A DNA stretch of 16,407 bases from Prevotellaceae bacterium. Its GTDB lineage: Bacteria; Bacteroidota; Bacteroidia; Bacteroidales; Bacteroidaceae. Positions 9,279-12,200 of this stretch are shown one piece after another. The stretch covers positions 1 to 16,407 of the forward strand of contig JAJPZF010000246.1 of the NCBI GenBank assembly GCA_021204545.1, written 5' to 3'. Both the position numbers and the translations under genes were made by a program. Within the stretch, counting starts at the first letter, position 1. Every line of letters starts with the position of its first letter. The notes beneath the pieces were generated by a model. The model was not told the origin of the DNA. It was given only the letters and a program-made list of their open reading frames with translations, and searched no databases.

Positions 9279-12200
9279 ATGACCATCACATTCTTCAAAA
9301 CACCTGGGGGCAGCGTCATCGCCACACAAAGCCTCGAGCCTCTCACACACGACGACACCGGCAAACTCTGCTGGCTCTACGGCAACGCGAATGAGGCACG
9401 GGAGCAGGAACTCACTGGCTTCTTCGTCGGCCCACGCAGGGAGATGATAACGCCCTGGAGCACCAACGCCGTCGAGATCACTCAGAACATGGGCCTACAG
9501 GGCATCACACGCATAGAGGAGTTCTTGCCAGCCGCCTCCGAACAGACTGAACACGACCCAATGCTCCAGCGCATATACAAGGGGCTCGGGCAGAGCGTCT
9601 TCAACGTCGACATCAAACCACAGCCCATACGCCACATCAGCGACCTCGAAGCCTACAACGAGGAGGAGGGACTCGCACTCAGCCCCGACGAGATAGACTA
9701 CCTCCGCGGCGTGGAGCGACAGCTCGGCAGAAAGCTCACCGACTCCGAGGTGTTCGGCTTCGCACAAATCAACTCCGAACACTGCCGACACAAAATATTC
9801 GGCGGCACGTTCATCATTGACGGCAAGGAAATGCCATCAAGCCTCTTCGCTCTCATCAAACAAACCACCAAACTCAACCCCCACCGCATACTCTCCGCCT
9901 ACAAGGACAACGTGGCCTTCGCACAGGGACCCGTGGTGGAGCTGTTCGCACCCCGCGACCACTCCACAAGCGACTACTTCAGGGTCACGAACATTGAAAG
10001 CGTCATCAGCCTCAAGGCAGAGACGCACAACTTCCCCACCACCGTCGAGCCGTTCAACGGTGCCTCCACCGGCACGGGAGGGGAGATCAGAGACCGTATG
10101 GCTGGGGGCGTAGGCTCGTGGCCCATTGCAGGCACTGCCGTCTATATGACCAGCTACCCGCGACACGAGGGCATACCCCTGCCACCGCGCAAGTGGCTCT
10201 ACCAGACACCAGGGCAGATACTCATCAAGGCATCCAACGGAGCGTCCGACTTCGGCAACAAGTTCGGGCAGCCGCTCATCGCAGGCTCACTGCTCACCTT
10301 CGAGCACGAGGAGCGCGGCGAGCAGTACGGATACGACAAGGTGATAATGCTTGCCGGAGGCGTGGGCTACGGCACTAAGCGAGACTGCCTGAAGCGCGAG
10401 CCTCGGAAGGGGAACAAGATAGTGGTGGTGGGCGGCGACAACTACCGCATCGGGCTCGGGGGAGGCAGCGTCTCATCCGTCGACACTGGCCGCTACAGCA
10501 GCGGCATAGAGCTTAACGCCGTGCAGAGGGCCAACCCCGAGATGCAGAAGAGGGCGGAGAACCTTGTCAGGGCTCTCTGCGAGGAGGAGGTGAACCCCGT
10601 CGTGAGCATTCACGACCACGGCAGTGCGGGGCACGTGAACTGCCTGAGCGAGCTGGTAGAGGAGTGCGGCGGCTTGATAGACATGACTAAGCTGCCCATT
10701 GGCGACCCTACCCTGTCGGCAAAGGAGATAATAGCCAACGAGAGCCAGGAGAGGATGGGCTTGCTCATCGAGGAGCAGCACCTGGACCACGTGAGGCGCA
10801 TAGCAGAGAGGGAGAGAGCGCCGCTCTACGTGGTGGGAGAGACAACGGGAGACGCGCACTTCGCCTTCCGCATGGCTGACGGCACGCGGCCCTTCGACCT
10901 CGACGTGGCGCAGATGTTCGGCCACTCGCCCAAGACCGTCATGAGAGACAACACCGTCGAGAGGCTCTACCAGAACGTGACGTACGAACCCCTGAAGCTG
11001 CGCGAATACCTCGACAAGGTGCTCCGACTCGATGCCGTGGCGTGCAAGGACTGGCTCACCAACAAGGTCGACCGCAGCGTCACGGGACGGGTGGCAAGGC
11101 AGCAGTGCCAGGGCAGGATACAGCTCCCACTGTCCGACTGCGGCGTCGTCGCCCTCGACTACCTCGGACTGGGAGGCATAGCCACCGCACTTGGGCACGC
11201 ACCGCAGGCTGGCTTGGCTGACCCACGCAAAGGCTCCGTGCTGTCCGTCGCCGAGAGCCTCACCAACATAGTGTGGGCCAACCTCGCCGAAGGGCTGGAC
11301 AGCGTCAGCCTCTCAGCCAACTGGATGTGGCCCTGCCGCGCGCAGGAGGGTGAGGACGCAAGGCTCTACCAAGCAGTCGAGGCACTCTCACGCTTCTGCA
11401 TCGAACTCGGCGTCAACGTGCCTACGGGCAAGGACAGCCTCTCCATGACGCAGAAGTACCCCGACGGAAGGAAGGTCATCAGCCCCGGCACCGTCATAGT
11501 CTCCGCAGGGGCAGAGGTAAGGGACGTGCGCAAGACCGTAAGCCCCGTGCTCGAGAACGTCGCCTCTACCTTATATTATATAGACTTCTCAGGCGACCTG
11601 CCAAGGCTTGGAGGCTCAGCCTTCGCCCAGAGCCTCGGCCGTGTGGGCAGCGACGTGCCTACAGTCATCAGCGCCAAGCAGTTCCGGGCCACGTTCAACG
11701 CCCTTCAGCAGTGCGTCGAGAAGGAACTGCTGCTCTCAGGGCACGACGTCTCGGCAGGGGGACTCGTTACCTGCCTCTTGGAGATGTGCTTCGCCAACAC
11801 TGAGGGAGGACTGGACGTGTGCCTCGACACGCTTGGCCAGACGGACCTGGTCAAGGCACTCTTCGCCGAGAACCCCGCCGCAGTGGTGCAGGTCGCAGAG
11901 GAGCACAGGGCTGCCTTCGAAAGCCTTATGCAAGAAGCTAACGTCAGGTGCCTGCCCCTTGGCTCCCCCTCAAAAGACAGAACCCTCACCATTTCCTATA
12001 CCGCCCCGACGGGGCAGGACTATGATAGCCGTGGGTTGCAACCCACGGAACGCAATAACTATACAACCACGTTCGACATAGACCAACTCCGCGACGTGTG
12101 GTACGAGAGCAGCTACCTGCTCGACCGTGACCAAAGCCTCAACCATACGGCTGAGGAGCGTTATAAGAACTACAAGCTTCAGCCCCTCGAGCTCACCTTC

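Follow-up and report, generated by a model that had tools for sequence, protein, structure and literature searches.

A two-hairpin element of a family that flanks Y1 transposase genes lies in frame within purL of a Prevotellaceae bacterium

The closest described systems are REP elements and REPtrons with their transposase TnpA_REP (RAYT), the Rickettsia palindromic elements (RPEs), and the IS200/IS605 elements. TnpA_REP of E. coli has been shown to recognize the foot and the hairpin on single-stranded copies of REP (PMC8266576). PMC3733652 already documents REPs and RPEs that lie in frame within genes, and PMC6006769 documents in-frame REPs within the tnpA_REP genes. For CGTC repeats, the account given in PMC3733652 reports no linked Y1 gene. 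Y1 transposases with the signature Y---Q--HH make up subclass 1.2, a class thought to have no REPs and entered as REP 'no' in Table 1 of PMC6006769. A further family, Acido-Lenti-1 (Rfam RF01687), is a motif of Acidobacteria and Lentisphaerae that PMC2864571 rated as a probable RNA, and PMC13298647 states that little is known of its function.

We found a two-hairpin element, GCCCC-GAC-GGGGC followed by a 13-nt spacer and a 20-nt palindrome, at positions 12003-12048 of the window, which is the whole stretch of DNA analyzed (16,407 nucleotides of contig JAJPZF010000246.1, assembly GCA_021204545.1). The host is a gut-type bacterium with an assembly of 1.6 Mb that is 65% complete. The features, in window coordinates, are:

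9279 to 13004, plus strand: purL, phosphoribosylformylglycinamidine synthase, 1241 aa; a reading frame open throughout, with NCBIfam and Pfam matches.
11994 to 12047, plus strand: the inserted block, 54 bp, encoding SYTAPTGQDYDSRGLQPT; placed by protein alignment, with inferred ends that are uncertain by several bases.
12003 to 12015, plus strand: hairpin 1 (H1), GCCCCGACGGGGC, arms GCCCC/GGGGC and loop GAC; read from the sequence and aligning to H1 of model R2 (below).
12016 to 12028, plus strand: 13-nt spacer, AGGACTATGATAG, with the foot ATAG at its end (12025-12028); read from the sequence.
12029 to 12048, plus strand: hairpin 2 (H2), the perfect 20-nt palindrome CCGTGGGTTGCAACCCACGG; read from the sequence, with copies elsewhere in the host genome.

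An earlier note had described a 5-bp hairpin and a perfect 20-base palindrome 13 bases apart in the purL frame, and the sequence confirms these coordinates. The two hairpins correspond to PurL residues 909-924, and the extra peptide, by alignment, to residues 906-923. Several reading frames of the element are free of stop codons. The purL frame is uninterrupted and its domains are intact despite the insertion: PurL matched NCBIfam NF003672 with 1402 bits (cut-off 783) and TIGR01735 with 1068.5 bits (below the cut-off of 1123), and the Pfam scan recognized GATase_5, AIRS_C, PurM_N-like, linker and N domains. Elsewhere in the window, a minus-strand 690-aa reading frame (14297-16369) had no Pfam match at E≤0.001.

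Apart from the 20-nt palindrome, the window has no loopless palindrome with a half-length of at least 8. Of 300 random first-order sequences as long as the window, 6 contained a palindrome with a half-length of at least 10, and the palindrome by itself is only moderately unlikely by chance. Chance is excluded because the repeat family, defined by the pattern of both hairpins, recurs in the host genome.

We found that the inserted block was exclusive to the host among 110 aligned PurLs. The alignment comprised the host protein and those of 109 relatives (29 loci from one search and 80 from another), with three near-identical duplicate pairs over residues 50-1100. The stretch from LPLGSP to LLDRDQ spans 61 residues in the host, and the modal length is 43 (73/110 PurLs). 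The difference is the 18-residue (54-bp) block, and none of the 109 relatives' PurLs shares its peptide. PurL of G081, the best match among those searched (80% identity), is of the short form and lacks the block. The earlier note had stated that this stretch has no counterpart in other Bacteroidetes PurLs, and had named a shared peptide in close and distant relatives as a refutation; the alignment shows that relatives lack it. It had also estimated the addition at about 20 residues; the addition is in frame, but by alignment amounts to 18.

Extra residues at this place are not confined to the host. Ten of the 110 PurLs, all from relatives, have 8-16 residues above 43 in the same stretch, with sequences different from that of the host; some of these extras are of low complexity (e.g., TPNTQHPTPNTQHLTP). 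Excising 11994-12047 on paper, with ends judged from the proteins and possibly wrong by several bases, leaves RTLTI-ERNNYTTT-FDID, equal in length to V-EKDGATYQ-FGID of relatives. The best PDB match has a 14-residue gap at the place of the insertion, within the portion of the alignment displayed. These sequence comparisons suggest that the insertion site is the tip of a strand-turn-strand immediately ahead of the glutaminase portion of the enzyme. Judging from the intact frame and domains, the insertion is probably harmless to the enzyme.

Other PurLs contain other palindromes. Those of L316 (G019), L111 (G281) and L071 (G280) have in-frame inserts with a different palindrome, of the type CTCCC..GGGAG. 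A loose pattern of this type occurred 150, 309 and 110 times in G019, G281 and G280, respectively, versus 4, 9 and 12 times for the pattern read backwards; the corresponding counts in the host were 4 and 10. PurLs of L315 (G018), L314 (G027) and L312 (G079) have further loop inserts, likewise in frame, and in some of these there are simple repeats or short inverted ones.

The element in purL belongs to a family dispersed in the host genome. The pattern CCCCGNNGGGGN{4,14}ATAGCCGNGGGNTNNANCCCNCGG occurred five times in the host genome, was absent there when read backwards, and was absent from 60 genomes of the same genus. An exact copy of H2 lies at G000:C271:5317-5336 (G000 is the host), and copies with one mismatch lie on contigs C240 and C251. 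We built a model, R1, from ten host copies. R1 had 76 matches in the host at E≤0.01, or 66 after removal of 10 that overlapped others; among these 66 places three pairs still touch, and many are near contig ends. The earlier note would have been refuted by the lack of a second copy in the genome, and the 66 non-overlapping matches show that others exist.

The copies are mostly outside protein-coding sequence. We inspected reading frames that span the 66 host copies, and scanned 12 such frames, plus one that overlaps an element, with Pfam. The purL copy was the only one of the 66 inside the body of a recognized protein. In three other cases the element was upstream of the domain (YchF-type on C3, AICARFT on C118, and LptF/LptG on C136), and the copy at G000:C17:3823-3888 encodes the leader sequence at the N terminus of a lipocalin-like lipoprotein (Lipocalin_8). 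The earlier note had asked whether other copies lie inside genes: they are nearly absent there, and purL alone has one in the body of a recognized protein. Two other features of the host contigs were seen. At G000:C106:2779-3312, two pairs of copies are repeated 309 bases apart, indicating that a longer unit was duplicated. Positions 860-929 of L143 (G000:C240) match the Rfam FopS sRNA family with 79.2 bits (cut-off 56).

Host copies vary in structure. A third hairpin, of the type GTGCCGAAGGTAC, is present downstream of the C172, C273, C5, C271 and C251 copies, and is absent, in the stretch compared, after the purL, C277, C240 and C17 copies. The foot of the purL copy, ATAG, departs from the GT[AG]G of canonical REPs; other host copies have GTAG. 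Of the 61 genomes of the genus, counting the host, 35 had at least one R1 match, and the counts were very uneven: 79, 73, 55, 29 and 23, then at most 6, down to 0. The 79 matches to this host-type model were in G081, even though its PurL lacks the block.

Members of the family flank Y1 transposase genes in relatives of the host. PF01797 (Y1_Tnp) was matched at E≤0.001 in 22 of 61 genus genomes. Matches exceeded 60 bits in six (G079, G022, G027, G035, G013 and G032), and all of these have one or more R1 matches. We found no Y1 transposase in the assembly of the host (65% complete) or in that of G081 (83% complete). In G013, G027 and G032 the Y1 gene has inverted R1 matches on both sides. In G079 and G035 R1 matched on one side, and for G079 a copy on the right can be read from the sequence. 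Inverted pairs of elements surround the Y1_Tnp genes of L177, L175 and L178. Y, Q and HH of Y---Q--HH were invariant in all six transposases, with DH[IV]H in five and NHIH in one; our assignment to subclass 1.2 is from this motif.

The six proteins, used as queries, had matches in 31 of 201 genomes of the family, and 28 of these 31 contain a single copy of the gene. We compared the flanks at 34 loci (28 of 30 from the family search and 6 of 8 from the genus search, the rest being partial or of another type). At 18 of the 34 loci, the inverted match between left and right flanks exceeded that of 99% of cross-genome pairs, a control that itself contains genuinely related elements; the other 16 did not pass. 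Hairpin pairs were also sought automatically in the flanks; the result was noisy, with spacers of 10-13 nt in 24 of 53 pairs, compared with 12 of 91 in shuffled sequences.

Dispersed copies tended to resemble the transposase flanks of their own genome. We scored 41 dispersed copies from six genomes, the best-scoring R1 copies rather than all, against the six transposase flanks, and the own-genome flank was the best fit for 33. This fit was strong in G027 (19/20) and G079 (11/13) and was seen for the one copy in G013 (1/1); it was weak in G032 (2/5), G022 (0/1) and G035 (0/1). No transposase flank closely resembled the sequences of the host copies, and the best score for the purL copy, 13.5, was at chance level.

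A model made entirely from other genomes recovered the purL element. R2 is a covariance model of 23 elements that flank Y1 (IS200-like) genes at 13 of the 34 loci, and it contains no host sequence. R2 had a single match in the window, at 12003-12048, with 34.6 bits and E 3.5e-8. On other PurL loci (80 loci, 451,193 bases) the best match had 14.2 bits and E 0.3; these loci were 79 of the 80 from the second alignment search (all but L121) together with G081. R2 also had 47 matches at E≤0.1 in 25 host loci that partly overlap. The blind recovery of the purL element from the transposase ends of other genomes is our strongest single result. It shows that the element belongs to a family of hairpins flanking Y1 transposases, in which H1 has a 3-nt loop and is separated from H2 by a spacer of ~13 nt. 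The spacer of the purL copy, 13 nt, equals that of most of the aligned flanking elements. Together with the dispersed family, the R2 match supports the earlier proposal that a mobile palindrome inserted in purL.

Both helices of the R2 elements covary. In the alignment 95.2% of cells were paired; the elements, which have a short second hairpin, were picked by eye for hairpins, and such picking favors pairing. Changes on both sides of a pair were seen in 65 cells, versus 20.3 in shuffled alignments; the covariation score was 0.719 versus 0.247 (0/500 shuffles as high), and at most 0.153 when the alignment was slid. TAG at the foot was counted by eye in 9 of the 23 elements.

We consider it probable that 12003-12048 is a REP-like non-autonomous element, in frame in purL, and most likely moved by an enzyme of the Y1 subclass 1.2 class. 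The observations behind this reading are membership in the family, the in-frame insertion, its absence from relatives, the inverted flanks, and the cognate flanks in G027 and G079. Weighing against it are the failure to find a Y1 gene in the host and G081, the chance-level flank score of the purL copy, the poor fit in G032, G022 and G035, the ATAG foot, the 16 loci that failed the flank control, and the missing third hairpin of the purL copy. We infer that this class of IS200/IS605-like HUH enzymes moves the element and that it did so in the host, in whose 65% complete assembly no transposase was found. Such a Y1 enzyme would recognize the foot and H2 of single-stranded copies and paste them elsewhere, with no need for a gene inside the copy. 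Most landings would be between genes. One copy landed in frame in purL, probably at a turn that tolerates extra residues, as the extras of other PurLs at this place suggest, and probably once the lineages of the host and its nearest sampled relative had separated. The gene stayed open, and no function of the peptide need be assumed; the 18 residues are presumably a loop that is tolerated and serves no purpose in itself.

As an alternative, the element could act as an RNA (an Acido-Lenti-1-like sRNA, or a pausing or mRNA-stability hairpin) that is retained in purL for regulation and is not mobile. RF01687 matched other host copies on the opposite strand (C273, 36.3 bits; C172, 32.8 and 29.4 bits; C277, 32.0 bits), up to just under its gathering score of 37. 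Read as the reverse complement, the two families are alike: a small hairpin, a spacer of ~12 nt, UAG, and a larger hairpin, in 46 nt. The source paper's rating of RF01687 as a probable RNA (PMC2864571) and the covarying helices also fit this alternative. However, covariation also fits DNA hairpins read by a transposase, RF01687 gave no match to the purL locus at E≤5, and copy number ranges from 0 to 79 among genomes of one genus. Furthermore, a search of 20 of the 34 transposase loci (62,755 bases) gave six RF01687 matches (24.2-35.6 bits, two with E >0.1), and all six form inverted pairs at both ends of the genes of L285, L293 and L175; the other 17 loci had none. RF01687 differs also in being filed as an RNA rather than a mobile element. 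We found no mention of a link between Acido-Lenti-1 and a transposase in the text available from the open-licence literature. We regard the RNA alternative as unlikely.

In a second alternative, a classical RAYT (TnpA_REP class 2) would mobilize what is a genuine REP, and the link to subclass 1.2 would be indirect. The host genome is incomplete, class 2 RAYTs are known in Bacteroidetes according to PMC6006769, and L179 (G075) has a Y1 gene of the YIHQNP type. However, there was no R1 match in L179 or L180, and the flanked genes have Y---Q--HH and score 19 bits against REP_Tyr_transpos (cut-off 80). A canonical class 2 RAYT is unsupported by motif, cut-offs or flanks, and we think this origin improbable.

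An RPE-like, CGTC-tagged repeat without a transposase of its own would have the same outcome, a palindrome coding for an in-frame peptide, and CGTC repeats are reported in Bacteroidetes in PMC3733652; but the foot is ATAG, the CGTC tag is absent, and the architecture is that of Y1-transposase flanks, so we rejected a Rickettsia-type element on its tag and consider it very unlikely. Least probable of all is an ordinary hypervariable linker altered by slippage or small indels, its palindrome coincidental: despite the ten other PurLs with extra residues, some low-complexity, and the 6 of 300 random windows, it was rejected on the host-only pattern copies, exact and near-exact with the same spacer, and on the match to R2, which was built on other genomes (E 3.5e-8), unless the copies derive from purL itself.

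These results might indicate a broader system. There is perhaps an even chance that the Bacteroidaceae contain an unnamed REP-like system of ~100-bp three-hairpin elements with a domesticated Y1 transposase of subclass 1.2, that Acido-Lenti-1 is its other strand, and that PurL loops repeatedly take in-frame palindromes, including those of a second, unrelated dispersed family in G019, L111 and L071. The results also tie a subclass of transposases with no substrates known to a single testable mobile system, to which an orphan Rfam family possibly belongs as well. Pairs of transposase and element are at hand in G027, G079 and G013 for pairing in vitro. The purL case is a fresh, single-lineage example of a core metabolic enzyme gaining protein sequence from mobile DNA; it comes from a phylum for which the listing in PMC3733652 does not include GTAG-type REPs.

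The system resembles REPs and REPtrons as described in PMC6006769 and PMC3733652: dispersed palindromes that are mostly extragenic, a 5' foot at the hairpin, inverted copies around a single-copy Y1 gene in relatives of the host, genome-specific variants, and in-frame copies in genes. It differs in having two hairpins, often with a third, in a foot that is ATAG in purL and variable elsewhere, and in transposases that are subclass 1.2 by motif, the subclass with the negative REP entry in PMC6006769. With IS200/IS605 it shares hairpins near the ends and the Y1_Tnp enzyme, the transposase of L175 scoring 61 bits against NF033573 (cut-off 55) and that of L177 42.9, below it; in contrast, the gene here is usually present in one copy (28/31 genomes) and hairpins are dispersed without it. 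The earlier note had drawn a parallel to RPEs, and this holds for the effect, a palindrome in frame in a conserved gene that adds a peptide. The family is a different one: RPEs are CGTC-tagged and have no TAG foot in the description of PMC3733652, whereas the host element has no CGTC and has the architecture of Y1-transposase flanks. The phenomenon is therefore known; as far as the open-licence literature shows, what is new is the type of element, the link between it and the signature of subclass 1.2, and the case of purL.
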